From NCBI RefSeq assembly GCF_013343295.1, contig NZ_CP049074.1, positions 1,717,501-1,781,500 of the forward strand: a DNA stretch of 64,000 bases. Reading direction: 5' to 3'. Of this stretch, positions 6,718-45,400 are shown piece by piece (position 1 is the stretch's first letter; every line of letters begins with the position of its first letter). This stretch comes from Metallosphaera tengchongensis (GTDB lineage: Archaea; Thermoproteota; Thermoprotei_A; Sulfolobales; Sulfolobaceae). Under the pieces are notes generated by a model. The model saw nothing but the letters and a program-made list of their open reading frames with translations. It searched no databases and was not told where the DNA came from. A program made the translations under genes and the position numbers.

Positions 6718-6814
6718 CTATCTAAATTCAGGGGGAAGGAGTAAAAAGCTGATCTTTCAAATGAGGGGAAGCCTTAGTATTTAACGTGGAGATCTCATCG
6801 TTTCCTGGACCAAT

Positions 6815-7408: not shown

Positions 7409-7409
7409 A

Positions 7410-8483: not shown

Positions 8484-8535
8484 ATGTTCTAGTAACCAAC
8501 AAAAACTTAATTCGCTTTTTGTAATCTCTCCTGAG

Positions 8536-10640: not shown

Positions 10641-10817
10641 GTAGTTAACTTTGGCGCAGAATTAAATTAACTTTAGTATCCAACGTGAATTACCAAAAAG
10701 TTCTACTCTTTAAACAATATTTACTGACCAAGAGCTAATAAACTCAGTGGCGTGAACCTTTATCCTGTCGTGGGCTCTAGCGTTCTAAATGGGTATCTAA
10801 AGTTGTTATTACAATTG

Positions 10818-10853
10818 GCGAAAGCTTCGCCTTTGGGGCTGAGAGGAGGTCTG
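10818..10853 (+). repeat. Solo IS200/IS605-type terminal hairpin remnant
   Basis: The stretch from gcgaaagcttcgcc through gaggaggtct matches the end hairpin next to the TnpB pseudogene at 24728-24760 (aaagcttcgccctttaggg), with a few substitutions and no tnpB beside it. It lies upstream of the glutamine-synthetase-like gene. Confidence 0.55.
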
Positions 10854-10904
10854 ATCCCAGATTTAAGGCTTTTATTTTCTGCTAATTCACATATCGAGAT
10901 AGAT

Positions 10905-12188: not shown

Positions 12189-13157
12189 ATGTTAGCCGCT
12201 GTTTTTAGTGAAAGAGGGAAACCCCTTCAGCTACAGGAAGTTTCAGACCCATTAAATCCGATAAGGGTGGGAGCTACAGGCCTTTGTCACGGGGACGTTC
12301 ATATAATAATGGGGGACTGGGGATGGGATGTTAACGTCTCCCCTCCATTAATTTTAGGTCACGAGATAGCTTTAGTTGACGACCAGGGTAACACCCACCT
12401 TCTATACAACTCCAAGGGGTGCGGAGTTTGTAAGCAGTGCAGGTCTGGTTTTCCCCAATACTGTGAGAGGCTTAAGGTGATAGGTGTCCACGTTAATGGA
12501 GGTTTTGCCAATTACATGGAGAAACCGGAGGGTTATCCTTTGGTTCCGGTTAAGGGAAATCCTGCAGACGTAGCTCCCCTCGCTGATGCCGGTACCACTG
12601 CGGTTAACAGCGTTGAGGGAATCAGTGAAGGCGATGTGGTAGCCGTGTTAGGGACCGGTGAGGTAGCTCTTCTATCCATACAACTTCTAAAGCTTGTGGG
12701 CGCTGAAACTTGGGTGGTCGGTAGAAACCAGAGTAAGTTAAGGAAGGCGAGGGAACTCGGGGCAGATGAGGTAATTTTCTCCAAGGGACAGTACTCAAGC
12801 AGTCTGTCTGAGTCGGCTGGTCTTAAGAAATTTGATTATATTTTGGACTACGTTGGTAGTGACGAAAGTCTGAGGGACGTCCCCTGGCTGTTAAGGAGAA
12901 CGGGAGAGTTGAGAATTATTGGTGAATTTGGTGGCGAGCTTAGGATACCGGAGCAGTTGTTGGTTTTAAGGGGTCTGAGGGTGAAGGGAATCCTGTACGG
13001 TTCCCTATCCCACATGAAGGAGGCAGTAAGGATTTACGAGAAGGGAATGCTAAAGACTCTATCAGTCCCTTACTCATTGAGTGAAATAAATCAGGCAATT
13101 TCAGACTTACTTGAGGGAAAGGTTGTGGGGAGGGTAGTTATAATACCCTCTTTCTGA
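12189..13157 (+). CDS. Zinc-dependent alcohol dehydrogenase (MDR superfamily)
   Basis: A 322 aa MDR dehydrogenase. Catalytic zinc ligands are visible as GLCHGD (Cys33) and GHEI (His58), with Asp133 a possible third. The structural zinc site is complete at Cys78, 81, 84 and 92 (CGVCKQCRSGFPQYC). The NAD(P) fold is VAVLGTGEVALLSI near 151-164. It starts directly after the TAA of the glutamine-synthetase-like gene, so the two form an operon, possibly for an amine or alcohol pathway. Its 3' end overlaps rtcA on the opposite strand by 20 bases. Confidence 0.88.
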   Translation: MLAAVFSERGKPLQLQEVSDPLNPIRVGATGLCHGDVHIIMGDWGWDVNVSPPLILGHEIALVDDQGNTHLLYNSKGCGVCKQCRSGFPQYCERLKVIGVHVNGGFANYMEKPEGYPLVPVKGNPADVAPLADAGTTAVNSVEGISEGDVVAVLGTGEVALLSIQLLKLVGAETWVVGRNQSKLRKARELGADEVIFSKGQYSSSLSESAGLKKFDYILDYVGSDESLRDVPWLLRRTGELRIIGEFGGELRIPEQLLVLRGLRVKGILYGSLSHMKEAVRIYEKGMLKTLSVPYSLSEINQAISDLLEGKVVGRVVIIPSF

Positions 13158-14148
13158 TTTCAATGTGGAACGGTTTGTCGCCTTTGAGCGAAACTTCAAT
13201 GTCTAAAAATTTCCTTATTATGGACAGGTTGGTCTTGCAGTGTTCAGTGAACTCCGAACCTGTGTAGCTAAGGTTAGCGAAAAAGCTGAAGTTCATTATC
13301 ATATCGGACATATGATCGTCCAGCGACGCTTTAGTTTCTAGAACTTTGAGGAGTCCCTTAGCTGATCTCTCCCCCACGGTCTCAGCCCTCACTCCTCTCT
13401 CTCCTAGACTGCTAGACCCAACCACAGAGGAGCCTATACCAGAGAGAGTTATCCCTGAGCCCGTACTTTCCTCAGCCCTCACTTCCTCCTCAATGTGGAT
13501 GGGCACAGCCAAGGTTTTTAAAACCTCCCTGGCACCTTCTGCCTGCCTCCGGGCGATATGGCCCGGGAGGGAAGAAACGTGAGATACTCCTCTGACCTCA
13601 ACCAGAGTTCCAAACTCCTTTAGATTAAGGTCTACAGGGTTTCCCCTAAAGCTGTCAAGGAGTACTTCTCCTCCTCCCTTCGGGTAATGTCCCCTCCTCA
13701 GAAGTTTGATCTTTCCTCTAATACCCATTTTCTCGATTACAGGGAGATACACTAGTCTCATGTAGTCTATGGGAGGGGAGAGAGGAACATCTGTACCACC
13801 TAAAATTCTCAATGTGGTTCTCCTGTTTATCATGAGCGGAATTGCAGTCACGGAAACTAAGCTTACGCTCCCAGCCGTGCCTATATCTATGGTAAAGTCT
13901 CCCTCTTGTATCTCCTTAGGACGAAACTCCAGGAGAGTGGAACCTAAAAAGTCTCCCTTGACTTCCGCGTCAGCTAGGAGCTTAGCGACCTTCACTGAGG
14001 CCAGATGCTGTGCCTGTAGGCCTGGGTTCTTTCTCCTTATCCTAATGTTGTTAAGCCTGAAGGGCCTTCCTGTCAACGCTGATAGCGTAAGTGAAGTCCT
14101 AAGTATCTGTCCTCCCCCCTCACCGAAAGACCCATCTATTTCTAGCAT
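13138..14148 (-). CDS. rtcA: RNA 3'-terminal phosphate cyclase
   Basis: A 336 aa protein with the RtcA hallmarks: the N-terminal [18 protein letters not shown], the AQHLASV block, HYPKGGGEV, and a DDHMSDM segment holding the catalytic histidine late in the protein. It converts RNA 3'-phosphates to 2',3'-cyclic phosphates with ATP, for RNA repair or processing. The length is standard. It is divergent from the next gene with only 11 bases between starts. Confidence 0.93.
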
Positions 14149-14159
14149 GAGGTAAATTT

Positions 14160-14600
14160 GTGAAAGTTAAAATAAAGTCTCTAGGCTACCTTAAGGGTAG
14201 GGATTCTCTAGTCGTCATCCCATTAGCTGAGTCCGGAAAGTACGTCCTATGTCTCAATTTCTTCGAGGATGTGGAGGACGGTAGGTTGGCTAGGTTCGTC
14301 ATAGTGGAGGATAAATATGGGGAACTGACCGACGTCAAACTCGTGGAGGGGGACGAGGTGATGGTGGAGGCGGAGGAAGTGAAGGGCGATATGGACACGT
14401 TATCCAAACTTATAAGGATAGAGAGGGCAAGAAAGTCGAGTGTCGTCCCTCTCTTTATAAACGTGGAAGTGAAGGATGAGATTAGGGGAGACGGGAGAGG
14501 CGTTAGAGGGTACTTCAATTACGTCAGGAAATATGGACAGATAAACCTTCAAAAATTAAGGGGAAAGTTGACCCTCTCATTTGAGGAAGTCCCTGAGTGA
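14160..14600 (+). CDS. Archaeal protein of unknown function
   Basis: A 146 aa mainly beta, acidic protein (VIVEDKYGELTDVKLVEGDEVMVEAEEV) starting with GTG. The N-terminal half could be an OB- or barrel-like fold, but no family is recognised. It is 11 bases from rtcA and overlaps the 3' end of the polymerase gene by 24 bases on the opposite strand. The promoter must lie inside rtcA. Confidence 0.5.
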   Translation: MKVKIKSLGYLKGRDSLVVIPLAESGKYVLCLNFFEDVEDGRLARFVIVEDKYGELTDVKLVEGDEVMVEAEEVKGDMDTLSKLIRIERARKSSVVPLFINVEVKDEIRGDGRGVRGYFNYVRKYGQINLQKLRGKLTLSFEEVPE

Positions 14601-22236: not shown

Positions 22237-22539
22237 ATGGTCGCAATTAACCCGTCGGATATAGCCATAATAATTATAGTAGCACTAGTGCTTTTCGTGG
22301 GGAGCAGCAAAATACCAGAGCTGTTCAGGTCCATGGGTAAAGCCTTAGGTGAGTTTAAGAAGGGTAGAATGGAGGCTGAAATGGAAATAAACCAGATGCA
22401 GAATCAGCCACCAGCCTCAACCTATCAATCGCCACAAAGTAATCAACAGAAAGCGGCTAGTCCCGAGGACCTAGAGAAGCAGATAAAGGATCTACAAAAA
22501 CAGCTAGATGAAATGAAAAAACAGCAAAAAACTCAGTGA
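22237..22539 (+). CDS. tatA: Sec-independent protein translocase TatA
   Basis: A 100 aa TatA protein. An N-terminal membrane helix (IAIIIIVALVLFVGSSKIPEL) leads to the FR-SMGKALGEFKKG amphipathic helix, and a Gln/Pro-rich tail ends in a short coiled coil. TatA forms the pore that lets folded proteins cross the membrane. It is first in a cluster with a second TatA-like gene and tatC. TATA-like boxes lie at about 22196 and 22219. Confidence 0.93.
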   Translation: MVAINPSDIAIIIIVALVLFVGSSKIPELFRSMGKALGEFKKGRMEAEMEINQMQNQPPASTYQSPQSNQQKAASPEDLEKQIKDLQKQLDEMKKQQKTQ

Positions 22540-22613
22540 GCCATTATAGAGGTCACGTAAAGTAGGCGTAATTTTTTGTTTGTAAGTTAGGAAGGGGGAG
22601 GGGAGGCTAACAA

Positions 22614-22967
22614 ATGATAGGTAGTCTGAGTGATGCCCTTATAATGGTAATAGTAGCTATACTGCTGCTTGGCGGGGAGAAGAATCTCTCCGGTACGGTG
22701 AGAAATCTTGGGAAGACCCTAAGTGAACTTAGGAAAAGGCAAGACGAATTCAAGAGGGAGCTCATGAAGGAGTTATCTGAGACCGGTGATATTACGCAGG
22801 AGGTGAGGAATGACCTCTCATTTAACTCTAATTCTGGGCCCATGGTAAGACCACTCTACAACCTCCCTAAAACGTCTGAGGAAGAGAAGATCAAACAACT
22901 AGAGGAACAGATAAGGAGGATGCAAGCGGAACTTGAGAGGTTGAAGAAGGGTGACGGAAAAAACTAG
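22614..22967 (+). CDS. Second TatA/TatB-like protein
   Basis: A 117 aa protein with the TatA plan: a short N-terminal helix (LIMVIVAILLLGG), then TVRNLGKTLSELRKRQDEF as the amphipathic helix, then a long acidic tail and C-terminal coiled coil (IKQLEEQIRRMQAELERLKK). Glu/Lys content resembles TatB-like partners, but archaea generally have only TatA-type proteins. It overlaps the tatC start by 17 bases. A short poly-purine stretch precedes the ATG. Confidence 0.85.
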   Translation: MIGSLSDALIMVIVAILLLGGEKNLSGTVRNLGKTLSELRKRQDEFKRELMKELSETGDITQEVRNDLSFNSNSGPMVRPLYNLPKTSEEEKIKQLEEQIRRMQAELERLKKGDGKN

Positions 22968-23766
22968 CGAGCTGCAGAAATCAGGAGAGAGGCCCCTGTT
23001 AGAACACTTGAATGAGCTTATATACAGGGCTAGGAGAGCTCTAATATCGCTTGTTTCGGCCTTCGTGATATTCTTCTTCTTCGGGATTAAGGAAGTGTCC
23101 TTCAACGGATTTAATTTCCCTATCCTATACCCCAATCTTTTCAACAGTATTTCCTCATATTTTATCAGGCTATTTATACATACTGAACTCCCACCTCAAC
23201 TAAAATTACTGAACTTAAACCCCTTTGATACTTTGTTTTCAGCGGCTTACGTTTCCTTCTTCCTTTCACTTTTTATAGCTATGCCTATCATAATCCATGA
23301 GATATGGGGGTTTGTATCACCTGGGCTTTACGAAAACGAAAAAAAGATGGCTAAGTCCCTAATACTTCCAGCCTTCGTTCTGTTTGCTGCAGGTTCTAGT
23401 TTTGCGTATTTTATCATTATTCCTGTAATGATGAAGTTCGTACTTCTATATACTACTTCTTTAGGTGTTGAGCCCACACTTAGCCTGAGAGCATTTATCA
23501 ATACCGTGATGTCGCTCATGCTAACGGTGGGTCTAGGCTTCGAATACCCCTTAATAATGACCATGTTAACTATGGCAGGGGTAGTGAAAGCCGAAAGTTG
23601 GAGGAGAAACTGGAGGTACGGTGTCCTGGGAGCGTTCATCATAGCTTGGTTTATATCACCAGGTACCACGGGAGGAGTCATAGAGACCACAATTGGGGTT
23701 ACGTTGTCGACCCTTTACTTTGTAGGGGTAGCGTCATCCTATTTGGCCCAGAAAAGGCGTAAATAG
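22951..23766 (+). CDS. tatC: Sec-independent protein translocase TatC
   Basis: A 271 aa TatC protein, the receptor for twin-arginine signal peptides. The N-terminal family block PLLEHLNELIYRARRALIS is followed by six likely membrane segments. FVSPGLYENEKKMAKSLI after the second one and the GLGFEYPLIM stretch are typical. It starts inside the previous gene (GTG start). Twin-arginine substrates exist in this window: the 37077 molybdoenzyme begins with RRDFLK. Confidence 0.93.
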   Translation: MTEKTSELQKSGERPLLEHLNELIYRARRALISLVSAFVIFFFFGIKEVSFNGFNFPILYPNLFNSISSYFIRLFIHTELPPQLKLLNLNPFDTLFSAAYVSFFLSLFIAMPIIIHEIWGFVSPGLYENEKKMAKSLILPAFVLFAAGSSFAYFIIIPVMMKFVLLYTTSLGVEPTLSLRAFINTVMSLMLTVGLGFEYPLIMTMLTMAGVVKAESWRRNWRYGVLGAFIIAWFISPGTTGGVIETTIGVTLSTLYFVGVASSYLAQKRRK

Positions 23767-27998: not shown

Positions 27999-29606
27999 AT
28001 GAAGAAAGTAATTTTAGGTATAATGGTCGTCTCGGTGTTTTTATTGGGAGCGTTCTTGGGCTCTCCTGTTATGCAGTTTTTCTCTCAGGTCATCACACCA
28101 ATACCTCAACCCATTGTAAGGACTTACGATATGTATAACACTACTTACTTCCCCTATGAGGTTAAGGTAGTGTATTATCCAGGGAACTACACGAACTTAA
28201 ACCTAGGTCTTCCAACTTCATGGGAGGTTACAAATGGAGGTCAATCTCACAACGCTGCCTTCACCACAACGTGCACTCAACTAATCCAGGGAGTGGTGTG
28301 GCAACAGGACTTCGCCCACATGGCTGGTGCAGCTCTCATACCTCTGTCTGCACCTCAGAACATGTTACCTGGAGCAAATGTGATGGGTACTAGATCCGCT
28401 TTGGTGATGTTAACTCAAATGGTCGGAGAACCCTTGGGAGTCACCCTTGCTGATAATCTCCTTTTTGTGGAAGAAGATAGCGGCCCTGGTAGTATTTTTG
28501 CAGTGAATCCGTTAAATGGCCAAGTAGTCTGGTACGCAACTGGTTTGGCTAGTTACGCTATGAACAATCCCATAGTCTATAACGGAATAGTGTTCGTGAC
28601 TGTGGGCGACGTTGGGTTCAACTTCGCCAACTTCGTACATTACGAAAAAGGTCAGTTCTCCTCAATACACAGGGGAATGGCGTATGGAGCGATATATGCG
28701 TTCAATGCTACGGACGGTGAACTGCTCTGGATGAAGTTTACCATGGGCGAGGCCATGCCTGCGCCAGCCGTTTACGATGGTATCTTAGCGTACTCCGACG
28801 GAGGTGGAGAATTCATAGGAGTAAACGCCACCACTGGACAGGTCCTGTGGATGGACTCAATGCCAGGCCTTTTCGATAGTATGAGCAGCGTAAACTATTA
28901 CGTTATGCCTAATGGGACGCCAATCTTCATAGCAGGTTTCACCAGCCTCAGCCAACCTTTCGGTCTATTGGTAGCTGTGGATGGACTTAATGGCAAGGAA
29001 GTATGGAACGCAACTTTACCCTCACCAAATAGACCGTTTAATACCGGAATGGGTGATGTCCCACCTGCAGTAGATCAGCAACTAGGTATAGTGGTTCAGA
29101 GTACGGTCGCCAACGCTGAGCCTAACGGCACTGTTGACACCTTGGTTGTGGGTGTGAACGCTACGACCGGACAAGTTCTCTGGGTTACTAACCTGGGAAG
29201 AGGTTACACTCCACCTGCATTCAAGGGAGCAATTCCAACGATATACAACGGTACCGTCTACGTGGGGGCACCTTCCCTTGGCAAAGAGTACGCAATTAAT
29301 ATAAAGACTGGTCAAATTCTATGGCAGACCAGGTTAAATGGGATATCGACGCCACCATCTGCGCCAGGAGGTCCTAGGGGAGGGGCGACCTACTACGACA
29401 ATCTGCTGTGGGTCGTGGGTGGACCAAACGTTTACGTCCTTAATCCTAAGACAGGAGAGGTACTCCAGCAGTATTATGTTGGAGGAAGGTTCGGAATAGT
29501 AAATCCAGTGATTGTAGGTAGCACCATGTACTTGACCAACAGTTACGGATGGGTAATAGCGATACCCCTCTACCAGGTCTATCCTAACTACGTCCTTTAC
29601 GCTTAG
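27999..29606 (+). CDS. Membrane-anchored PQQ-like beta-propeller protein
   Basis: A 535 aa protein with an N-terminal membrane segment (VILGIMVVSVFLLGAFLG) and a large outer domain. Repeats of the PQQ-enzyme propeller kind are visible: IFAVNPLNGQVVWYATG, IYAFNATDGELLWMKF, ATTGQVLWMDS, ATTGQVLWVTN, TGQILWQTRL. These build an eight-bladed-type propeller outside the cell. PQQ binding or quinoprotein dehydrogenase activity is not shown, since no catalytic Asp-Cys pair is clear. It stands alone, convergent with an ABC transporter operon. Confidence 0.75.
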   Translation: MKKVILGIMVVSVFLLGAFLGSPVMQFFSQVITPIPQPIVRTYDMYNTTYFPYEVKVVYYPGNYTNLNLGLPTSWEVTNGGQSHNAAFTTTCTQLIQGVVWQQDFAHMAGAALIPLSAPQNMLPGANVMGTRSALVMLTQMVGEPLGVTLADNLLFVEEDSGPGSIFAVNPLNGQVVWYATGLASYAMNNPIVYNGIVFVTVGDVGFNFANFVHYEKGQFSSIHRGMAYGAIYAFNATDGELLWMKFTMGEAMPAPAVYDGILAYSDGGGEFIGVNATTGQVLWMDSMPGLFDSMSSVNYYVMPNGTPIFIAGFTSLSQPFGLLVAVDGLNGKEVWNATLPSPNRPFNTGMGDVPPAVDQQLGIVVQSTVANAEPNGTVDTLVVGVNATTGQVLWVTNLGRGYTPPAFKGAIPTIYNGTVYVGAPSLGKEYAINIKTGQILWQTRLNGISTPPSAPGGPRGGATYYDNLLWVVGGPNVYVLNPKTGEVLQQYYVGGRFGIVNPVIVGSTMYLTNSYGWVIAIPLYQVYPNYVLYA

Positions 29607-33403: not shown

Positions 33404-34039
33404 ATGATAATGTATGTGAGTTTCCTCGATCAGCGCGACTTAGACGTTATAGAGCTAATGGTCACACTGATGCACGTTTCATCTTACAAATTATCTAAAA
33501 TATCTGGAATCCCAGCTTCAACTTCTTGGAGGATTCTAATGAAGTTAAAGTCCATGGGGTTGATCGCTAAGGACAGCAAAGAGTACTACATCACCCCTAG
33601 GGGCCTGGTCATGGCCTACTATCTCTCTAAGAGACCTACAATTAGGGAGACTTCCCTTAAGAACTTGAAGGAAGCGTGGAAATACGAGGGGTCACAGGAA
33701 GAGTTAAGGAATTTTCTAGATTCATTAAGGGAATTCCTAAGACGATTCGAGATTTCGCCCATGAGCATATGTTTCAATCAACCACTCTCAGCCATTAGTT
33801 TGATGTTACCTAGAGCTAAGGATCTGGATGAGATGAGCAAGAAGGTATTAGCTAGGTTTATCTTAAAGACGTTCCCAAGCGTGGTTTTACCCTCGGGCTG
33901 TAAGGTAGTCCTTAGCTTCGATGAGAGCGGAGAACCTTACGCTTTGGCTTCTGACTGTAAGGAGGAAGGGGTTCATATTTTCCACAAGTGTTCTCTCATA
34001 AATTCAGTGATAAAGTCGGAGGTAAAAGGAACCAGATGA
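33404..34039 (+). CDS. Winged-helix regulator-like protein
   Basis: A 211 aa protein. The N-terminal third (DLDVIELMVTLMHVSSYKLSKISG...STSWRILMKLKSMGLI) is a winged-helix domain. The rest is unrecognised and includes two conserved-looking cysteines near HIFHKCS. It overlaps the next gene as ATGA, so they are translationally coupled, and the two products may act together. A TATA-like ctatttaag lies about 22 bases before the start. Confidence 0.6.
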   Translation: MIMYVSFLDQRDLDVIELMVTLMHVSSYKLSKISGIPASTSWRILMKLKSMGLIAKDSKEYYITPRGLVMAYYLSKRPTIRETSLKNLKEAWKYEGSQEELRNFLDSLREFLRRFEISPMSICFNQPLSAISLMLPRAKDLDEMSKKVLARFILKTFPSVVLPSGCKVVLSFDESGEPYALASDCKEEGVHIFHKCSLINSVIKSEVKGTR

Positions 34040-34953
34040 GGGACTTCATGGGAAACGTCAGGACATTAATGAACAAGGGTTTCCACCCTACGGTAATAAT
34101 GAACGGTTGTATGAGAAGGGGTCTTCAGGGAAGCGCGGATGTAAGTTCAGATGGAAGTTTAGGCGGTTCAATCTCACTGGAGAAGTGTCTGATTTTAGGC
34201 CATGAGAAGGAGGGTCCATGCAATTTTTACCCCTCGACCAAGAGGACTCTTCTCAAGAAGGAACTTAGGACCGAACCTGGTCAAGGCAGGTTAATTTTGG
34301 GTGCAGACGGAATGCCGTTCGTTGACATTTTGAGACCTGAGAGAAATTCAGAACTGCTAAAGGCTTATCTGAGCACTTCGATAGGAATCCACTCTCCCAC
34401 CTGGTATGGGGTAGAACAACACGACGTTGCGGGTTTCTTTTGGGGGTTTAGGGACTCTCCTCCTTTAAGGGTCGAACAGGGTATGGCCACTGGTCTGATA
34501 AATAGACCTGGAGGACTGGTCCCGGTGAAGGCCCTCTATAGAGCGCTGAACGGAGCCGAGGAGTACTTTGAGAGACGTGGTTTCCCTCTGAGAGATCTGA
34601 TAAAGCTCTCTGAGGAGACCTTGGAGAGGGCAGGCAAGGCACTTGTGTTTGACAGTGATGTGAGGGCCTTCAATCTAACTAGAGCGGGAATTCACGGTCT
34701 ACAGGACGTGGTCATGACTCTAGGATTTGACATGGAGGTAGAGTTACCAGATCCGTGGTACCCAAATCTGTGGGAGTCGACAAAGGCTTTCGGAGAAGTG
34801 ACACACTCCGAGGTCTTGGTGCTTGTAATAGGAAGGGAGTATGATGTAGACTCTGCGCTCTCCAAAGCTGAGAGTATTGGTATTCCGTCCTTCAATGTAG
34901 GTAAGATAAAAGATAAAGGTAAAAACGTTTTTCTAAAAAAAAGAAAAGTATAG
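34036..34953 (+). CDS. Unknown protein, possible PurM/AIR-synthase-like C-terminus
   Basis: I place the start at the ATG at 34036, four bases into the previous gene's stop (ATGA), giving 305 aa. Much of the sequence is unrecognised. The end, EVLVLVIGREYDVDSALSKA then GIPSFNVGKIKDKGKNVFL, resembles the last strands of PurM/HypE/ThiL-type proteins (GIPAxxIGxV then VxL). The rest does not show the family's ATP motifs clearly, so the link is weak. It ends near the NrfD gene on the other strand. Confidence 0.4.
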   Translation: MRDFMGNVRTLMNKGFHPTVIMNGCMRRGLQGSADVSSDGSLGGSISLEKCLILGHEKEGPCNFYPSTKRTLLKKELRTEPGQGRLILGADGMPFVDILRPERNSELLKAYLSTSIGIHSPTWYGVEQHDVAGFFWGFRDSPPLRVEQGMATGLINRPGGLVPVKALYRALNGAEEYFERRGFPLRDLIKLSEETLERAGKALVFDSDVRAFNLTRAGIHGLQDVVMTLGFDMEVELPDPWYPNLWESTKAFGEVTHSEVLVLVIGREYDVDSALSKAESIGIPSFNVGKIKDKGKNVFLKKRKV

Positions 34954-34959
34954 CTTAAC

Positions 34960-36027
34960 TTAACCTCTCCACCCAAACGATCCTATAGGAACGGGTTGAT
35001 TGGTAACTATTTGGAAAGGTGTTAGAGGAGCCAACTGATAAGCGTATTGCCCTGCGAACAACACGTCAGCCCTAGTCAAGTAGCCTGCTACTAAGGCTAG
35101 TATGGCTGCCACTACGAGTAAGTACTTCATAACTGCTGGTAAATCCATGACTGGTAGCTCCCCCACTGCCTTGCTGGTCGTTGCTCCCTTCATCCCCATC
35201 ATGGGTATTCCAGAAATGGAGAGATAGCCTATCCCTGAGAGGACTAAGGTAAGGGAAGTAAGCCCCAAATCAGCTAGGAAAGAGCTTGAGGTTATCAGAT
35301 AGTTGTAGGCAACCTGGTCAAACACGTAGATGAAGTTTACCGAAGCCATGAACAAGAACCAAGCGGCTAGTTCGGCAACGCTTGAGAAGAACAATAGCTT
35401 TGACAGGGTAACTCTGGCTCTTATAACATCCTCGTTCTTACCAGCAAGTGCGACTATGTAAGCTAAACCTGTGGCTGCGAAAATCCCGTCCGCTAAATAA
35501 AGTACAGGTATCCCAGCGTTGTTCCAGAAGGGAACCCCAGTAGTAGCAGCAAGCTCGAATCCGCTGTAGGTGGTGGAAAATATACCAGCAAAAACTCCTA
35601 TAACCGCTATTACACCTCTAACCAGCCTGTTCTTCATGTTTAACAATGAGACAGCCATATATAGGAAGGAGAAGAGCAATAGACCTCCAACGAAAATTAT
35701 ACCCCTAGCCATCCACGAGTGACCGAAGTTAGCAATAGCCTCTATGGGTGAAGACAAGGCAGCTGCAGGTCTCCCTAGATCCATATCAAAAAATCCCAAA
35801 GCAAGCACCGCAGCGATGAACGTGACAACCGATGCCCTCTTGTTAAAGGAAGTGAACTTTCCCTTGACTTCCATCAACCCTATTATAGCCATTAGCATAC
35901 CGGCAATCTCCGTGAAATATAGGGCTAGAGCTACGTAATCTCCCCAGAGAGGGTACTGGTTTATCTGTATTATGGGCGCCTGGATGCCGAAGGACGTTCC
36001 TGGAGAAGGTGATGTGAACAGACCCAT
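34960..36027 (-). CDS. NrfD/PsrC-type quinol-linked membrane anchor subunit
   Basis: A 355 aa polytopic protein with eight to nine membrane segments. [13 protein letters not shown] and the [13 protein letters not shown] segment fall in the conserved NrfD family region between helices. Such subunits pass electrons between membrane quinol and a periplasmic-side Fe-S subunit. It fits the catalytic and ferredoxin genes encoded on the other strand at 37077-42240, and resembles SreC of sulfur reductases. The promoter attatattttaaataaag lies 24-41 bases upstream. Confidence 0.87.
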
Positions 36028-36050
36028 TTTTATCTAGATAGACGCTTAAC

Positions 36051-36068
36051 ATTATATTTTAAATAAAG
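36051..36068 (-). promoter_or_regulatory. TATA-like region of the NrfD gene
   Basis: On the minus strand the AT-rich run ctttatttaaaatataat is centred about 30 bases before the start codon at 36027. Confidence 0.4.
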
Positions 36069-36139
36069 TTTCATTTCATTAAACCGATATATCCAGTCAA
36101 ACATATTTCCCTTATCTTAAGGCCTCTTATTTAGACACG

Positions 36140-36150
36140 CTTTTATTTTT
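36140..36150 (+). promoter_or_regulatory. TATA-like box of the TPR gene
   Basis: The run cttttattttt is centred 25 bases before the ATG at 36170. This spacing is why I prefer that ATG over the TTG at 36155. Confidence 0.45.
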
Positions 36151-36169
36151 CACGTTGAATAATTCATCA

Positions 36170-37033
36170 ATGGGAGAGGATTTACTCTTTAAGGCTGATG
36201 AGATGTTTCGCAGGGGTGAATATCTAGAAGTCCTAGACCTCTTAGACGGTGTGGAGCTTGTTGAAGCCTTCATGATGCGTGCGGAGTCTATGGTCATGTT
36301 GGGGAGATATGAGGACGCATTAACGGAGTTGGAGAGGGGGCTGTCTATTTTCCCGTACAGTTACGTGATGCTCACCAGGCAAGCAGAGATCCTTGAGAGT
36401 ATGGGAAAATATGAGGACGCCTTGGAGAAGGTTAACAGGGCTCTAGAACTCATTCCCTTCTCCTCAGAGCACCACTTTTTGAGGGCCAGGGTCCTCTTTA
36501 AGTTACAAAGGTACGAGGACGCTAACCTTGAGCTAGCTGAGGTCCTGAGGACAAACCCTAAGAACGTCGAAGCCAGGATCATGAAGGCGTCGTCTTACTA
36601 CAATATGGGGCTGAAGCTGGACGCCCTCTCAGAGGTCAATAGGGCCTTGGCCTTCAGAAAAGAAGATCCTAAACTTCACGAACTTAAGGGGAAGATATAC
36701 TTTGAGTTAGGTTACCATAAGCTGGCCCTGAGCGAATTCAAGATAGCTTCCCACTACGATCCAAACAACTCTGACTACTACTACGAGATTGCCAGCTGTC
36801 ATTACTACCTAGGCATGTATGATGATGCGTTAATTTACCTTAACGAGGCCTTAAAGATATCCAGGAAGGCCCCTTACCTAGCACTCATGGCAGTCCTCAA
36901 GAAAGAGAGGGGGGAGGACCCCTCCCAGGAAGTGAGGGAAGCAGTGGAGCTGGACAAGTCAATGAGGACCGTCTTGGAAAACCTGCTTAACGTAAAAATA
37001 TCTCCAACTGGTTATATCGAGGGAGTGAAGTGA
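36170..37033 (+). CDS. TPR-repeat protein of the sulfur-reductase-like cluster
   Basis: A 287 aa protein built from about seven tetratricopeptide repeats, e.g. [54 protein letters not shown] and [21 protein letters not shown] arrays hold protein partners. It lies between the NrfD gene (opposite strand) and the catalytic molybdoenzyme gene, with 43 bases to the latter, so it may help assembly or regulation of the complex. No signal peptide is seen, so it should be cytoplasmic. Confidence 0.8.
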
Positions 37034-37076
37034 GGGCTTAAATAAACATGTTTAGGAAACTTGGTTTAGATAGGCA

Positions 37077-40000
37077 ATGAGCCACTTAAAGCTAACGAGA
37101 AGGGATTTTCTTAAGGTAAGTGGTGCAGCGGCATTAGGTACTGCAATTATCTTAGGAGGTAGTTCTGTAGCTAAGAGGCTTTTCGACACGTTCTCACAAA
37201 CGGACACGGGTTATACCCTCAACTATCCGGGCGATGAGATAGTGTACTCCAACTGCTTCCAGTGTCTGGGCAGATGTGGCCTTGAGATAGTTAGAACGCC
37301 AACAGGTTTCCCAAGGTTTATTACAGGCACCATAGGTTGGCATATAAACGATGGTGGAGTTTGTCCGAGAGGGGCTTCAGACGTCTACTACTATTTTGCC
37401 CCAGCCAGGTTAAGGTACCCATTGCTCAGGGCAGGGGATAGGGGTTCCGGGAAGTGGATCGCAATAGATTACGATACAGCGTTTGACATCATAGTTAATG
37501 GGGCTTCGGCAAGCAGCTGGAGCAAGCTTGGGGTGACACCCCAGAGTTTGGGCGTAGGTAACTTCCAGGGTTTCTTAAAAATCAGGGAGACCAATCCGCA
37601 TTCCTTAGGCTTCTGGCAGGGTAGAGACCAACTTATTCCAGGAATAACGGCAGGCTTCTTTGCGGGTAACTTCGGTACAGCCAACTCAGGAGCCCACGGT
37701 GGTTTCTGCTCAATGAACGTCTACGCAGCAGGAGTTTATGTGACTGGGGCTCCAGTGTGGGAGTACGCTGGTCCAGATGAGGAGAGGGCACAGTACTTCA
37801 TACTGGCTGGATTGGCTGGAGATCACTTCCCCAACTGGATGAGGAGGATCATAGCTAGAATAAGAGAGAACGGCGGAAAGGTGGTAACAATTGCTCCAGA
37901 GAGGTTCGGTTTCTACTCAGTATCGGATGAGCACTTGTTCATAAATCCCGCCACAGACGGAGCACTTGCCATGGGGTGGATAAGAGTTCTAGTGGACTTC
38001 CACTACTACGTGTACAAGGCCTATCTAGCGTCCACGGGTCAGGGTCCTGCTGTGATCAACCCCATGACCTTACAGTCCGTACAACCAGCGTACGATTCAG
38101 CATCAGGGCAACTAATAATGCAGGCTCCGACTCCCTCGGGCCAGGTACAACCTATCGCTTCCCTAGGCGACATACCGTCAACAGCAGTTTTCCCACACAT
38201 CGATGAGGAATTCCTTAGGTACTACACTAACCTTTCGTGGTTGGTGATAGTTAACCCCACTCCCCAAAATGGAGACTCCTTAGACCCAACAGATCCAACC
38301 GCAGGGAATAACGTTGGTTTGCACTTGAGGATGCCAGTGAGTAACTCTGAGTATAGTAAGTCTCATCCGTGGTTGGAGGCTATTATGGGTAACGATGGAA
38401 ATGTTTACTCCTTTGTAGACACTCCATGGCAGAAGAACGTCATGCCTATATTGACCATGGACGAGTTACCCTCGTCGATGCAGTCCAATATTGTGCAGGT
38501 ACCATACAAACTGAAGAACGGGACTACTGTGAAGGTACCAGCTATACAGGTAACCGTACCTAAGTCATTGGGTTCCTCAGATACCATTACTCTCACTGTG
38601 ACTACAGCCTTCGAGCTCTTTAGGGCTGAGCTTATGAACTACGATCCGTATACCCCTTCAGGCTCGTCACCCCAGTTTGGGGCCCTCAACGTGGCTGAAG
38701 TGACAGGGATTCCTCACAACACTGTAGTCAGAATTGCCAACGAGTTGGCTACTGTAGCTTTCCAGAAGTCCATTTACGAACCCGCTCAGTGGGTCGATTA
38801 TTTAGGCCGTTACCATGACCACGTGGTGGGCAGACCCGTTTCCATATACTTCATGAGGGGACTTGCGGCCCACGCCAACGGCTTCATGAGCGCTTCATCT
38901 CTCTACTACCTAGTTTTGACTCTAGGGGCCTGGGACAACCCAGGGGCTGACCTTTATAAGTACCCTTACCCTCACTATTTCCCTGGTCATGCAGTACCTC
39001 CTCACCCTCTAGCCAACGCACCAAGCGTAGACTCAAACATTGCTTCAGCTATTCAAGGAACCAACATATCTATACCTAAGGGAAGGTCTGGATTCCTGAA
39101 GACCGAGTATATCTACAACGATGGAACGGTGGACATCAAGAACGTGACTGTTGTAGGTGCCGGTCCCTACGGTTTCCCTGATGGTCCGGACGACCTAGTT
39201 CTATACAGTAACGGAAGACCTCTTCTCATGGACAGAGGGTATAGTTGGGAACTCCCCCTTGCAGTACAGAGGAGCATCTCAGCTGTGGCTTACACAGCTT
39301 ACTACATGAACAAGTACCCTAATCAGGTAATGCCATATACTGTGAACGCATTAATGTGGTACATTACCGCCCCGTACTGGAACAACGCTTATACCCTGAC
39401 TGATCTCTTGCAAAAAGTGACCGAGAAGGATAGCAGTGGGAATTACATCATACCGTTCACAGTCCAGTTCGACCTCTTTATGCAGGAGACGGACAACGTA
39501 GTGGATCTAGTTATGCCCGACCTTTCGTTCCTGGAGATTTATGGATTTCACAGCACATTTGACAGACCTACCTCCCTCCCACAGGGCCCATCAGATTCCT
39601 TGAACTGGCCAGCTTTACCATCAATGTATCCAGTTCTCTCCACAGGGGACACCCTACTCACGTTATTGTGGTTACTGAGGGCTTATCCAAATCAAAAATC
39701 CATAACGCCAACTGACAACCCCCACTATACAACCCAAGACCCCATCACGGGAGGAAACCTAGTCAGCCCAGTAAACGTCCACGACCCCATAACTGGGACG
39801 CAAATTTTGGCCCAAGGTCAACCAGGACTGATATCGACGGGCATGTATATATTAAAGTCCGGGACTCTCCTTGCGGGCTACGGAAGCAACTTCGAGTACA
39901 TACTAACGGATGAGTCTGGTAAGCAGTCCCCGAACCCTCAACAGTTGAAGCTATACGCCTCATTTGTACCAGCCTCCGGGAATCAGAGCAGTGTCATTAA

Positions 40001-41384
40001 TCAGATACTATCCAGCGTCCCCAGCGGTCAGACGTTCTCCACAGCACCTACTTTCAAGATAGGGGCAAGTAATAGGTCATCCGGAACGGAGCACTACTTC
40101 AGGATACCAGTGAAGTTCCAGCCTGGTCTTGCGAGCAAACTACAGGACATAATCAACAAGTATGCCCCCAACATGTCCTTAAGCGACATAAATCCAGGCA
40201 CAGTTAAGGTCGGGAAAGGAGGAGCAGCGTACGTCCTTCCACCTTCCATCAGATACATGAGGAACGTAAACATGTTCTACTTCCTTGGATGGGGCGCTTA
40301 CATGCCAGGAGGTTACGGGCCTATAGGGCTCCCCTACGTTCACAGGATTTACCTAGAGTACCTCCAGAAGTTTAGGCTGGCAGGAGCAGGGAAGTGGACT
40401 GGGTATAACGCAGCCTACTACTATTACTATCTCAAGACCGGCAACTCTCAATTCAAGGTTCCCTCCGTGGTGCCTAACGACAGCTACGGGAAAGCGGTCG
40501 CCAACAACCTGTTAAGCTACCACAGACCCTTTGGAGGCTATTACCCTGTCCCAGCCTGGAACTCAAGCATAACTCCAGACGGAATAAACGAGAGTGACTA
40601 TCCACTAACCTTCTTCGTGAGGAGGCACGATAGGACGTACCACACGTGGTCCTTTAACGTACCTTGGTTGATTGCCATAATGCCTTATACCCCAGTGATG
40701 CTGAGTGCAGCCGACCCATATGTGAAGAGCACGGGGATTCAGTCTGGTGATCTAGTACAGTTTGAGGCCATAAACGAACCTTGGAGTGGAGGTCTGAGGA
40801 CTACTCTTACAGCAGTAGCCTTCCTTGACAACGCCACTAGGCCAGGAGCAGCTTGGGTTGTTGTGTCAGCTCAGGCCTTGCCAGGGTTCAGGAGCCAGAC
40901 TGCGGACTCCCCACAGGTCAAGTACAGTGTGTTAAATAACTGGGCTAACATCTCGTACATGCCACCATCTAGGGGTGGACAACTCTCTCCAACCTCTGAT
41001 AACGCTTTCCCGATAATGTATCTAGATCCCATAACGGGTCAGACATCGTGGCACGACAGCAGAATAAAGATCATAGGTAAGTCATCCTCTAGCCAGGTCC
41101 AGGTCACAGCCAATAGGTTCACATACATGGGACAGGACTTCTCCAACCAGGACATACTGTCCGTTATCTCCAACCAGATGGGCGGACAGATATCTGTGAG
41201 CAACTCTCCCTCACAGGCTACCTTCGCCCAGCCTGTGAACGTACCTCACTTAAGGTTCAATGCCAACCAGATGACCTCAACTAGTATATGGAGCTACGTG
41301 TCTCCTGGATCCCTCGCCCCCAGCTACCAGATAGGTCAATACAAGGTGAGGTACGGGTTTGCCACAGACCCCACAAGTCAATAG
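37077..41384 (+). CDS. Large Tat-exported molybdopterin oxidoreductase (sulfur/polysulfide-reductase SreA-like)
   Basis: This 1435 aa protein begins with a twin-arginine signal, [14 protein letters not shown] (R8, R9). A 4Fe-4S site of the DMSO-reductase family follows at Cys60, 63, 67 and 96. Cys211 ([10 protein letters not shown]) lies where the molybdenum ligand is expected, as in sulfur- and thiosulfate-acting members. The middle and end hold long unrecognised insertions; the molybdopterin-binding end includes the [20 protein letters not shown] block. It is far longer than most PsrA/PhsA-type enzymes (about 750-1000 aa). The substrate is inferred from the neighbours, not proven. Confidence 0.75.
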
Positions 41385-41415
41385 GTTTTTCCTTAATCAT
41401 GTTTGAGGTGATAAT

Positions 41416-42240
41416 ATGTCCCAAACACCACAAATCCAATTGGATATAAGACAAGGTGGAGTCCAAAAGGCTCTCCCATACACTCCAGTAGCTAACTACG
41501 CGATAATAACGGATCTCAACAAGTGCTTCGGATGCGCAGGTTGCCAAATGTCGTGCAAGGAGTGGAACACATCAGGGATGTTCGGACCTTTGCCTGATCT
41601 TGATCCCTATGGGAACCTAGACGTAATGTTCTGGCTGAGAGTGCTTTACGTTGAGGTAGGGAACTACCCCCAAACCAAGGTATACAACATACCCATCAAC
41701 TGCTTCCACTGTATGAATGCCCCCTGTGTGGAGGTGTGCCCAGTTGGCGCTACCTTTAAGAGGACACAGGACGGCATCGTCTTAGTCGACTATGAGGAGT
41801 GCATAGGGACCAAGTACTGTATCTACGCATGTCCATACGGAAACAGGTTCTTCGATTACATTGAGGGCGTGACCAAGAAGTGCACCCACTGCTTTGACAG
41901 GATATATGACCCAACCCTACCGCCAGAGGAGAGGATCCCAGCCTGCATTCACGGATGTATGGTCCAGGCTAGGATCTGGGCAAATAGGCTTGACCCCACT
42001 GACCCAGGTAACATCCTGTTCGTGGACAAGGGAGGCTTCGTTTTAGGTCCTGAGACTGGAGCCAACCCCGCCAGCGGATATTTGCCATGGCATAGCGCCT
42101 ATGCAGCGAATAACGACGTAGAGCTCCTCAGCGAATCCGAGTACTACAACGTCTGGACATCCAACGGGGTTGTTCAGTTGGGTTCCCAAGGGAACAATTC
42201 GACCTATACGGAGAGCAATGGCTCCAACTCCAGCTCGTAA
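41416..42240 (+). CDS. Four-cluster ferredoxin subunit (SreB/PsrB/DmsB type)
   Basis: A 274 aa protein with the cysteine pattern of the DmsB family: [11 protein letters not shown] (37-47), [26 protein letters not shown] and CTHCFD...CIHGC. Four 4Fe-4S clusters carry electrons between the catalytic subunit and the membrane anchor. It lies 31 bases after the catalytic gene. No signal peptide is seen, as expected if it is co-exported with the Tat partner. An acidic/Ser-Asn-rich tail ([14 protein letters not shown]) is unusual. Confidence 0.92.
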
Positions 42241-42283
42241 GACATCTTTATTTTTTATTGTCCTCTTTTTATGGTGATTAAAC

Positions 42284-42937
42284 TTGTCAGTTTCCATTCT
42301 TGACGTGCTAAACGTTAGGCATGCGACTTACGATATGTTTTCTGAGCTCTTTCTATACAAGTTCCATGAGGAGGAATACAACGAGTTATTGAACAAGTTG
42401 AAGTTTTTGGACGAGAACCTCTCTAAGTATATGGAGGAGACCGGAGTAAACGTGGGGGAAATAAGGAGAGCCTTCCATGAAGCTAAGAGGAGCGACTACC
42501 TAATTGAGTATTCCACTCTCTTCTTAACAGGGATGGGTGTGAAACCCTTAACTCCTGTGGAGAGCAAAAGGATGTTCTCCTTGATGGGCGAGAAGGTAGC
42601 TACTTTCAAGTACACGGATGTCGTCAGGTTCCTTAAGTCAAGGGGTATTGTACCTAAGATGTCCTCACAGTTTAGCCCAGAACTCGATCATATATCTTCC
42701 CTGCTGGCCTTCATGTCGATCCTCATTGAGGAGGAGTTTAATCTTAGATCTTCAAAACAGGACGCGTTTAAGTCAGTCCAGGACCAGAAGAACTTCGCCA
42801 CAACCCACCTGTTTTCATGGGTTCCTGACTGGGCAAACGATGTCGTGAGCGATCCTAGGTCAAACCTATATAAGGTAGTTTGTAGGGAACTGGACAACTG
42901 GTTGAAGTTCGAGAAGGATTTCCTAGGGGAGAGATGA
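42284..42937 (+). CDS. TorD/DmsD/NarJ-like maturation chaperone
   Basis: A 217 aa all-helical protein with a TTG start. [22 protein letters not shown] at the N-terminus and [20 protein letters not shown] are recognisable TorD-family landmarks. It likely binds the Tat signal of the molybdoenzyme and aids cofactor insertion, like SreE. It overlaps the next gene by 4 bases. A T-rich run between the ferredoxin gene and this start (42246-42272) could be a terminator or just leader. Confidence 0.82.
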
Positions 42938-44412
42938 TGCTGAACGCAGGTCTTTTGGTCTCAAGGAAAGCTAGGGAGGTAATAGGGGACGATATCCTGA
43001 AGGAAGTTTTTGAGAGAGCTAAGTTAGCGTACGCGGCTGACTTGACTGACTTTGTCCAAGAGGATATTAAGCAAAACGATCTGAGGGCCCTCCTTATCGT
43101 TAATGAGACCGGAAGGGAGAGGTGGATGGAGGATCTAGATCAAAAATACGGAGTCTCCCCATTGGCGGTCTCGGTCATACCCTCGTCTTGGTTCCTTGAA
43201 AAGACAAGGGATTACATAATCTCTCTTCTGGTAGCTTACTCCTTAAGGGCAGAGATGATGGATCTAGTTTACAGGGTTCAACCCACGCGCTCCCCTTCAG
43301 TGTCCAGGAGGTCCTTACTCAAGTTTAAGCTCTACGAGTATAAGCCCTACCCAGTTCTGTTCGACGAGGTCCATGCGGAGAGGGAGATAAATAAAGCGGT
43401 GGAGTCATGTCCCTTGGGTCTGATTGCGAAGTCCCCAGAGGGACCTTCCGTGACCAACCCTGAGAAGTGTACAGCTTGCGGTTACTGCTCCGCTTCGTCT
43501 TACTTGGGCTATCTAGAGGTTCCAACGTTCACTACAGAGCAGTTCGTGTCGTTCGTTAACTCCTTGGTAAGGTTTTATCCTAGACCTGCGGGGATCCTCT
43601 TCACCGATTCGAGGCTTGAGAGGACTAGCGAGGGCATCTTCCCGTTCCTTGTTCCTTGCGTCGCTTCGGTCCACGATTCCTTCGTGTTGGCTACTTACGC
43701 TGCAGGGTTCATACCCATAGTCCACGCGTCCTCCACGTGTGAGACTAGGGACATGGCGTTGAGGAGACTGGAGGAACTCCCCTCCAAGTTCCCTGGAACT
43801 AATCTGGAGGTTAGGAAAGCGAAGAGCGACGAGGAGCTCACCAAGGTTCTGGAGACCCCCCTAATCTCCATACCAAGGGCAGAAATCCCTGAGGAGGTCT
43901 CGCTAAACAGGGGAAGAAGGAGGAACCTCCTGATCTGGTCAATCAACGAGATGTCCAAAAAGGTGTCGTTGAACCAGGACGATGAGATCCCTGGAGTTTA
44001 TGACGTTGTAGTAGACCCTAGCAAATGTGTACTTTGTGGGGTCTGTGTGAGGGCTTGTCAGATGCTCGTCCCAGATCTATCTGGAGGGTCAGAACTAGAG
44101 TTATCTTACAATATCCCCTACTGTATAGGCTCGCAGAGGTGCGTCAAGAACTGTCCGGAGAACGCCATAACCGTTCCAGGCTTCGCTAAACTTTCTAGTT
44201 TCAGGAAGAAAGTCGTCAACAAGGCAAGCGTTGCCAAGTGCAGGATCTGCGGAAAGCCCATAGGTTCGGAAAAGGTAAAGGTAAGGGTTGACTCCATGCT
44301 TCTGAGCCAGGGATTTCAGGGAACAGCTCAGTACACCGATATATGTAACGAGTGTAAACAGAAGGAGCTGACTAAAATGTGGGTTCAGAGAATACTGGGT
44401 GGTAAGAAATGA
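42934..44412 (+). CDS. Multi-cluster Fe-S protein of the sulfur-reductase-like cluster (SreD-like)
   Basis: A 492 aa protein. About residues 159-185 carry CP...CTACGYC, and about 370-420 carry [13 protein letters not shown] and [12 protein letters not shown]. The last 50 residues add CRICGKPIG and CNECKQ, a zinc-ribbon-like pair. Between lies [21 protein letters not shown]...[10 protein letters not shown], which echoes the MvhD/HdrA-linked domain that takes electrons from hydrogenases. No signal peptide is seen, so it is likely cytoplasmic. It overlaps the chaperone and the next gene by 4 bases each. Confidence 0.65.
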
Positions 44413-44993
44413 ATCCCATTCTACTCGATTTGGACTCTATAATAGATTTCTCCTCAGTCCAGGGGATTCAGGAGTACAGATCCCTAACGTTCTCCCTGTC
44501 GCTGGTGTCTAAGTACTACCCGGTGAGCCAGCTCGTAAAGGAAGTTTTAAAGGGCTCTCTCACGGAGGCTAAGCCATACCCTGATTCCCTGACCTTGGAG
44601 GAGTTGGGGTATAGGTCAAGGATACTCGTTGTGACCAATCTACCCAAGATGGAAGGAAAGAGATTGCTGATGAGGTATAACTTAGACGCTTTCGTCCAGG
44701 ACCTCGTTTCTCCTGAGGACGTTAACAGGTTTTTCCCTTCGAAGGAGTTCCTAGACTTTTCAGCGAGGAAACTGAACAGCGTCAGGGGAATAATGACCTT
44801 AATAACTCCACACGTAGACCAAGCCATAGTAGCGAGGGCTCAGGGTCTTAGGGTGATCCTCTTGAGGAGTAAAGTTTCCCTACCGCAGGATCTTGGTATT
44901 GGGATCAGGGATGACCTAACGCAGGTAGCTGAATCTCTTGCACAACACAGGGTTGACTCTACCATGGGGGACTCTAGTTTGAGGTGTACTTGA
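44409..44993 (+). CDS. HAD-superfamily-like protein
   Basis: A 194 aa protein. LLDLDSIIDFSS (residues 5-16) resembles the first HAD motif DxD, and LVVTNLPKMEGKRLL lies where the second (T/S) is expected. The LVSPEDV and LTLITPHVDQAIVARAQGLRVI parts fit later strands. The exact reaction is unknown. It overlaps the Fe-S gene by 4 bases and probably belongs to the same operon. Confidence 0.55.
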   Translation: MNPILLDLDSIIDFSSVQGIQEYRSLTFSLSLVSKYYPVSQLVKEVLKGSLTEAKPYPDSLTLEELGYRSRILVVTNLPKMEGKRLLMRYNLDAFVQDLVSPEDVNRFFPSKEFLDFSARKLNSVRGIMTLITPHVDQAIVARAQGLRVILLRSKVSLPQDLGIGIRDDLTQVAESLAQHRVDSTMGDSSLRCT

Positions 44994-45400
44994 TGGCAAG
45001 CGACACTGACTTGTTCTCTTGGTTCAAGGAGCTGAACATGAAAGTCGATAAGGTCAGCAGTTCTGGTATCTACTTTCACTTCACCATTTCTCCACCCATG
45101 GGAGGTGTGCCCGTGTCTGTCATAAGGACGACACCGGATTCAAGTTACTACATAGTAGCAGTGGTGTTGGACCTAGATCAGCAAAAGTTCAAGTCCAACC
45201 CAGAACTCTCATCACAAATAAAGAGAGAACTCATCAAAATGAACGTGGAATTTTTCTTCACCCCTGACGATAAGGCCCCAAAAAGCATTCAGATAGCAAG
45301 GATAATGTTCTCGCAGGACCTTACGAGAAATGAGGCCCTCAACAACGTAACGCTTGTCAAGAACGCTGCTCTACTGGTACTAGAGATGACGAGCAGGTGA
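44993..45400 (+). CDS. DUF2299-like protein
   Basis: I place the start at the ATG at 44993, overlapping the previous stop by one base; this gives 135 aa. The pattern LFSWFKELNMKVDK, then FHFTISPPMGGVPVSVIRT, and a helical end with VEFFFTPDD matches an archaeal family of unknown function (DUF2299). It closes the run of overlapping genes that starts at the chaperone, so it may contribute to the complex. Confidence 0.55.
   Translation: MASDTDLFSWFKELNMKVDKVSSSGIYFHFTISPPMGGVPVSVIRTTPDSSYYIVAVVLDLDQQKFKSNPELSSQIKRELIKMNVEFFFTPDDKAPKSIQIARIMFSQDLTRNEALNNVTLVKNAALLVLEMTSR

Follow-up and report, generated by a model that had tools for sequence, protein, structure and literature searches.

The cluster of eight genes at positions 34960-45400 of the window, a 64-kb stretch of the Metallosphaera tengchongensis genome, raises the question whether it encodes the SreABCDE sulfur reductase of sulfur-reducing Sulfolobales, as a sequence-only reading of this DNA had proposed, or a distinct enzyme class or larger complex, which the same reading had also considered. 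All eight genes are open, and their order, motifs and family matches (NrfD PF03916, PF13247, PF02613 and PF10061) were confirmed. The cluster and its relevant neighbours are as follows:

27999-29606, + strand: TetH (tetrathionate hydrolase), a neighbour outside the operon (PDB 6l8a, E 5e-75)
33404-34039, + strand: HTH (winged-helix) regulator, 211 aa (PcaR/IclR-type HTH, E 9e-6)
34036-34953, + strand: protein of an uncharacterised family, 305 aa (ATGA overlap with the HTH gene)
34960-36027, - strand: NrfD-type membrane anchor, 355 aa (PF03916, E 5e-9; hydropathy)
36155-37033, + strand: TPR protein, 292 aa (Pfam TPR)
37077-41384, + strand: MopA, predicted Tat-exported Mo/W-bisPGD catalytic subunit, 1435 aa (motifs, ortholog alignment, profile matches)
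41416-42240, + strand: FeSB, electron-transfer Fe-S subunit (PF13247, E 4e-19; TtrB/DMSO-II beta-like)
42284-42937, + strand: TorD/NarJ-type chaperone, 217 aa (PF02613, E 5e-17)
42934-44412, + strand: FeSD, polyferredoxin, 492 aa, SreD homolog (Fe-S motifs; BLAST, hhalign)
44409-44993, + strand: HAD-like protein, 194 aa (weak HAD match, E 1.7e-5)
44984-45400, + strand: DUF2299 copy specific to the cluster, 138 aa as called (PF10061, E 2e-35)

The tight spacing described earlier holds from the TPR to the DUF2299 gene, with gaps of 31-43 nt (TPR-MopA 43, MopA-FeSB 31, FeSB-TorD 43) or overlaps of 4 nt (TorD-FeSD and FeSD-HAD) and 10 nt (HAD-DUF2299), but not for the NrfD gene, which lies 127 nt from the rest on the opposite strand and is therefore divergent, with a separate transcript. 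A scan with a sigma-70 promoter model, which is unsuited to archaea, gave fewer matches than in shuffled sequence.

Judged by its sequence, MopA is a member of the DMSO reductase superfamily with a predicted Tat signal. It has the N-terminal CxxCxxxC...C motif with [4Fe-4S] ligands C60, C63, C67 and C96, a predicted Mo ligand (C211) at the position used by its relatives, and a dinucleotide-binding domain at about residues 1186-1330, and a four-cluster Fe-S subunit and a membrane anchor are encoded alongside it. These five cysteines are invariant in MopA orthologs and in a 1230-aa relative, MopA2; a NarG row, serving as a positive control, has Asp in the Mo-ligand column. MopA of the window and most orthologs contain no other cysteines. 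PF01568 matches MopA2 and maps onto MopA 1186-1261, and no match of MopA to the Pfam molybdopterin domain PF00384 was found. The RRDFLK Tat motif is clean, the TAT_signal match (22.1 bits) being just under the cut-off of 22.7, and RR[DE]FLK is kept in all aligned orthologs. The low K+E+R+D content (13% versus 19% in SreA) is in keeping with a location outside the cell, where the pH is low. The outsize length that had been pointed out is a family trait, since all unbroken orthologs checked measure 1421-1456 aa, against 1036-1050 aa for SreA from the same family of genomes and 765 aa for Thermus PsrA. The nearest profiles are PhsA and TtrA, with MopA scoring 63 bits against the NCBIfam PhsA cut-off of 694 and 55 bits against the TtrA cut-off of 1750. 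The best solved relative is Thermus PsrABC (PDB 2vpw, E 1e-15 using the family profile); PsrABC and PhsABC share the three-subunit architecture and the Cys at the Mo site, but the alignment with Thermus PsrA is restricted to MopA residues 7-308 and MopA is 670 aa longer. AlphaFold, run on MopA 146-1345 with few input sequences, gave an unusable model (pLDDT 28).

The 1435-aa form was found in 22 of the 31 Sulfolobaceae genomes searched, including all those of Metallosphaera; the sampled Thermoproteia genomes from outside this family all lacked it. In all 22, the genes for the TPR, polyferredoxin, HAD-like and DUF2299 proteins accompany mopA, in two gene arrangements, and the NrfD gene is linked to it. 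The linked set is larger than had been noticed: it also takes in the HTH regulator (22 of 22 genomes) and the 305-aa protein, a probable relative of which adjoins the cluster in 16 of 22. The TetH gene lies 7.5 kb upstream of mopA, a position that is the same in all six Metallosphaera loci (the window and five others); this linkage is limited to Metallosphaera and is not operonic. A 1223-aa frame of M. yellowstonensis (L083) was set aside as a relative, because the match is confined to some 100 residues and the translation seems to be in a wrong frame.

MopA2 was found in three genomes (G119, G222 and G223) and forms with MopA a clade of its own (support 99/98), the SreA clade lying elsewhere in the tree. 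It is 36-39% identical to MopA over nearly its full length and is likewise accompanied by NrfD, FeSB (50% identical), TorD and polyferredoxin genes, with an HTH gene in two of three genomes; it differs in being about 200 aa shorter and weakly recognised by Pfam, and in lacking the TPR, HAD-like, DUF2299 and 305-aa-protein genes in its neighbourhood. The doxDA genes (thiosulfate:quinone oxidoreductase) flank the MopA2 cluster in G119 and G223, not in G222, and were not found flanking MopA.

Regarding the partner proteins, FeSB contains four cluster motifs and 15 Cys (the second Cys is missing from one motif) and is predicted to be able to carry four Fe-S clusters. FeSB differs between two lineages, one having a Cys-to-Thr form, as in the window, for which a [3Fe-4S] cluster is predicted, and the other a 16-Cys form, for which it is not; the NrfD protein, with at least seven hydrophobic spans by hydropathy, is the predicted membrane anchor, in which we infer a quinone site, and TorD the predicted dedicated chaperone. 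No transmembrane or export signals were found in the TPR, HAD-like and DUF2299 proteins, which makes the suggested larger complex less likely than a role as cytoplasmic assembly factors. The catalytic DxD motif of the HAD-like protein is not conserved between orthologs, so this protein is probably inactive as a HAD enzyme. Its conserved tail GDSALRC[TS] had been considered as a sign of a DsrC-like sulfur carrier, which was dropped for the LRC part because GAGGTG, which resembles a Shine-Dalgarno sequence and would serve the following gene, DUF2299, lies within the codons of that part. The true start of the DUF2299 gene may be an in-frame ATG located three codons after the called one. The 305-aa protein (34036-34953) gave no Pfam or PDB match and an unusable AlphaFold model from few input sequences (pLDDT 44); a C-terminal pattern had suggested a PurM/HypE-like ATPase, rejected after hhalign against HypE gave a probability of 4%.

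The SreABCDE complex of Acidianus ambivalens, a reductase of S0 supplied with electrons by hydrogenase and reportedly described by Laska et al. in 2003, was compared by way of the sre operons at L080, L081 and L084. The subunit plan is indeed parallel: both systems have a Mo subunit with Tat signal and a Cys at the Mo site, an Fe-S subunit, an NrfD-type anchor, a TorD-like protein (SreE) and a polyferredoxin, FeSD being homologous to SreD (BLAST E 8e-17; hhalign probability 99%, E 5e-19). The match does not extend to the catalytic subunit and the anchor. MopA is about 400 aa longer and lies outside the SreA clade, the alignment of the two is confined to the first 300 or so residues (26% identity; hhalign E 1e-13), and the cluster's anchor showed no BLAST similarity to SreC, though both are of the NrfD family. 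SreABCDE is without the extra TPR, HAD-like, DUF2299, HTH and 305-aa proteins, and the MopA cluster, unlike SreABCDE, is not beside hydrogenase genes. The earlier identification with the reductase of sulfur reducers also fails on distribution: genuine sreABCDE operons occupy separate sites in some MopA-bearing genomes, and the cluster occurs where published surveys find no SRE (PMC5127849, PMC11143483), one of them counting M. yellowstonensis and no other Metallosphaera (PMC11143483). Among the genomes without SRE is G050, putatively strain A20, reported to have neither SOR nor SRE (PMC5127849). MopA, by these comparisons, is clearly not SreA, and that it is a long SreA in a known sulfur reductase, as the same subunit types and the aligned N-termini might suggest, is very improbable, being contradicted by the separate supported clades and the co-existence of both operons. 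The enlarged catalytic subunit does form a class of its own. Since the insertions are absent from SreA and the TPR, HAD-like and DUF2299 genes recur in 22 of 22 genomes, neither of the outcomes named earlier as speaking against a distinct enzyme class, insertions common to all SreA proteins or extra genes never found with the cluster elsewhere, was observed.

A second, divergent reductase of polysulfide, S0, thiosulfate or tetrathionate, fed by quinol in anaerobic or microaerobic respiration, would agree with the top profile matches, all to reductases (PhsA, TtrA, PsrA), and with the gene plan and polyferredoxin held in common with SreABCDE. We consider it rather unlikely, as MopA is present in all genomes searched of Metallosphaera, whose members are described as oxidising sulfur aerobically, and is independent of SRE, with SreA lacking MopA in G114, G136 and G146 and the converse in other genomes. 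A membrane-bound sulfite-oxidising enzyme like SoeABC, likewise of Mo/Fe-S/NrfD type, is quite improbable: SoeA is cytoplasmic and has no Tat signal, whereas the Tat motif of MopA is present in all aligned orthologs. SoeAB homologs have been reported in all Metallosphaera genomes (PMC7325606), and as a profile search of the M. tengchongensis genome gave only three PF00384 genes besides MopA, MopA/FeSB could be the SoeAB of that report. A substrate other than inorganic sulfur (arsenic, selenium, another oxyanion or a metal) is unlikely; the superfamily spans such substrates and the weak profile matches of MopA2 include ArrA and the DMSO/selenate family, but the neighbourhoods contain sulfur genes, and the annotated neighbours of the cluster included no recognisable genes for arsenic or selenium.

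The reading preferred here, to which we give about an even chance, is that of a membrane-attached respiratory molybdoenzyme run as a dehydrogenase that oxidises an external sulfane-sulfur compound, the direction and exact substrate being proposed; the association with sulfur oxidation comes from TetH nearby in Metallosphaera and doxDA beside MopA2 in two of three genomes. MopA and FeSB would fold in the cytoplasm with TorD, probably assisted also by the TPR, HAD-like, DUF2299 and polyferredoxin proteins, and would be exported jointly by Tat; on the outer side of the membrane they would rest on NrfD, and NrfD would exchange electrons with caldariellaquinone. Outside the cell, at pH 2-3, a polysulfide, S0-derived or polythionate/thiosulfate species, candidates including those released by TetH, would be oxidised and the electrons would feed the aerobic respiratory chain. 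Several points count against assigning a dehydrogenase: enzymes of the superfamily can work in both directions, the sequence reveals no motif for a substrate, and the links to TetH and doxDA are limited to Metallosphaera and MopA2, respectively. Also counted against this model was the retention of the cluster in G042, a putative Sulfolobus acidocaldarius genome, that species being reported to be without SOR, SRE and TQO (PMC5127849). More tentatively, and with less confidence, MopA could represent a separate, Sulfolobaceae-specific class of extracellular, quinone-linked sulfur-oxidising molybdoenzyme with its own assembly proteins, which may perform S0/sulfane-sulfur oxidation in SOR-less species.

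In 2008, Auernik and Kelly reportedly observed that transcripts of a 'polysulfide/sulfur/DMSO reductase-like complex' of M. sedula, which we take to be Msed0812-0818, were stimulated by reduced inorganic sulfur compounds. If TetH is Msed0804, as we assume, gene counting places the genes from NrfD to HAD exactly at Msed0812-0818, which suggests that the MopA cluster is orthologous to that complex and that the operon has therefore been noticed before. The complex was reportedly described only as such induced transcripts; a search for the Msed0812-0818 tags returned nothing, and neither family analysis nor biochemistry was found in the literature searched. The family identity, spread and accessory genes seem undescribed.

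In the literature, the S0-oxidising step in SOR-less Sulfolobales is stated to be unknown (PMC8551704, PMC5127849) or is only proposed to proceed via Hdr (PMC11143483). A conserved exported respiratory molybdoenzyme was not found in the sections consulted of these reviews and surveys (PMC8551704, PMC5127849, PMC11143483), which list SOR, SQR, TQO, TetH, Hdr, SAOR/Soe and SRE. The presence of the cluster in the putative genome of S. acidocaldarius, a genetically tractable species, makes the question testable. The cluster may be a missing step in the sulfur-based energy gain of the heat- and acid-loving Sulfolobaceae, and knowing which substrate the enzyme uses would either close a gap in the known energy metabolism of bioleaching archaea or rule it out.

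All eight genes that the sequence-only reading had placed in the cluster are present as it described, with support somewhat stronger than first stated. Pfam matches were obtained for the NrfD (membrane anchor), TPR, Fe-S, TorD (chaperone) and DUF2299 proteins; the match of the HAD-like protein to HAD was weak. The genes from TPR through DUF2299 are tightly spaced (-10 to +43 nt) and the NrfD gene is divergent from them. MopA, the catalytic subunit, has 1435 aa (157 kDa), a length which is no assembly artefact since orthologs of 1421-1456 aa (72-90% identity) were found in other genomes.

The 1435-aa form occurs in all six Metallosphaera genomes searched and in 22 of the 31 Sulfolobaceae genomes, while no full-length relative was found outside this family among the 229 sampled genomes of the class. 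A pattern scan of 84,980 GTDB genomes gave matches in Sulfolobaceae alone, although it picks up close relatives only and distant homologs in other phyla could escape detection. In genome G224, mopA is present as two frames, split near residue 627 around a 316-aa ORF (stretch L097, G224:C1:192000-211000, positions 6714-14300); nrfD is likewise broken in two and the remaining cluster genes appear intact, a "natural wreck".

MopA has ~1090 residues between its last Fe-S cysteine (C96) and its dinucleotide-binding domain (~1186, located via the PF01568 match of the 1230-aa relative), against ~760 in the sulfur reductase subunit SreA. Segments without counterpart in the 1230-aa relative total ~224 residues, chiefly in 310-372, 464-490, 870-1040 and 1351-1406. 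They are conserved between orthologs, with 73% identity versus 82% in the rest of the protein, and most of the longer insert regions that were examined are charge-poor; the insertions are thus not random. Exactly five cysteines occur in the window's MopA, each of them a predicted cofactor ligand.

The label of sulfur reductase (SRE, SreABCDE) does not hold for the cluster. Operons in sreABCDE order (sreA of 1036-1050 aa, sreB, sreC, sreD, sreE) lie elsewhere in three genomes (G131, adjoining hydrogenase genes, G072 and G136), and SreA aligns with MopA over about the first 300 residues only (26% identity). A tree of residues 51-319 united MopA and the 1230-aa relative in one clade (support 99/98) and placed SreA elsewhere (95/93); its deep branches are long and the exact sister group is unsure. 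PF00384 was matched by SreA (E 1e-24), weakly by the 1230-aa relative (9e-8) and, in the Pfam search, not by MopA. Genomes with MopA and genomes with SreA overlap only partially. The cluster is carried by G050, which we take to be strain A20; G042 is presumably S. acidocaldarius. This distribution agrees with the SRE counts of two papers, where SRE was counted in M. yellowstonensis and not in other Metallosphaera (PMC11143483), and was reported to be lacking from both strain A20 and S. acidocaldarius (PMC5127849).

Two gene arrangements were found. In arrangement A (16 loci) a reversed NrfD gene precedes TPR, MopA, FeSB (Fe-S subunit), TorD, FeSD (polyferredoxin), HAD and DUF2299, all forward. 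In arrangement B (6 loci) MopA-FeSB-TorD remain together and the HTH regulator, unknown protein, TPR, FeSD, HAD, DUF2299 and NrfD genes lie upstream of MopA, mostly divergent. NrfD, TPR, FeSB, TorD, FeSD, HAD, DUF2299 and HTH genes each accompany MopA in 22/22, DUF2299 copies beyond the analysed stretches being located by a separate search. The unknown protein adjoins MopA in 16/22; its A and B versions (plain BLAST E 0.17) are probably homologous, judging from position and shared invariant residues. The strongest evidence for a joint function of the extra genes with the MopA enzyme is that the set has been preserved despite rearrangement.

Beyond this cluster, DUF2299 is widespread as an archaeal family (127/229 genomes), and the cluster copy is therefore an extra paralog. 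Two more DUF2299 genes lie in tandem away from the cluster in the window's genome (G000:C1:134091-134971), and tandem pairs occur in other Metallosphaera genomes (e.g. G102, G084, G108, G022). Nearly all orthologs of the HAD-like protein (44409-44993) share the C-terminal sequence GDSALRC[TS], the remainder being ~30% identical. The LRC codons also supply a Shine-Dalgarno-like GAGGTG for DUF2299; the GDSA codons vary synonymously and are not accounted for by this overlap.

The third cysteine group of FeSB (window 41416-42240; also L074-L076, L078, L079, L098) reads CIGTKYC (15 Cys) in arrangement A (16/16 loci) and CIGCKYC (16 Cys) in arrangement B (6/6 loci), and FeSB of the 1230-aa relative's cluster has Phe at the Thr position. 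This predicts a [3Fe-4S] versus [4Fe-4S] difference tracking gene order.

Sulfur and export genes lie near the cluster or near that of the 1230-aa relative:
L082 11153-12195 and L095 4251-5290, doxD-doxA pair (thiosulfate:quinone oxidoreductase) near the 1230-aa relative's cluster
window 22237-23766, tatC (TatC E 5e-47) preceded by two small ORFs, TatA-like by eye

The doxD (PF04173, E 4e-67) and doxA (PF07680, E 6e-38) genes adjoin that cluster in G119 and G223. The tatC region lies ~13 kb upstream of the Tat-dependent MopA. Every Metallosphaera locus has a TetH gene (PDB 6l8a match, E 5e-75) upstream of the cluster, with an ABC transporter and other genes in between. In G102, presumably M. 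sedula, exactly seven genes lie between TetH and NrfD; NrfD-to-HAD likewise comprises seven genes, counts that would fit TetH as Msed0804 and NrfD-to-HAD as Msed0812-0818. These counts suggest that the cluster corresponds to Msed0812-0818. It was reportedly noticed already at the transcript level: the 2008 abstract of Auernik and Kelly is said to describe Msed0804 and Msed0812-0818 as induced by reduced inorganic sulfur compounds.

Cofactor motifs, an export motif, the subunit set, conservation and sulfur-gene neighbours are evident from the sequences of the cluster. The MopA complex would face outward, be coupled to quinone and run in the oxidative direction, with sulfane-sulfur as putative substrate. 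No export or membrane signals were found in the TPR, HAD-like and DUF2299 proteins, the HAD nucleophile is not conserved, and the three genes are absent beside the 1230-aa relative, which together suggest cytoplasmic assembly roles. As judged by these comparisons, the MopA cluster is a distinct, Sulfolobaceae-specific variant of a known enzyme kind.
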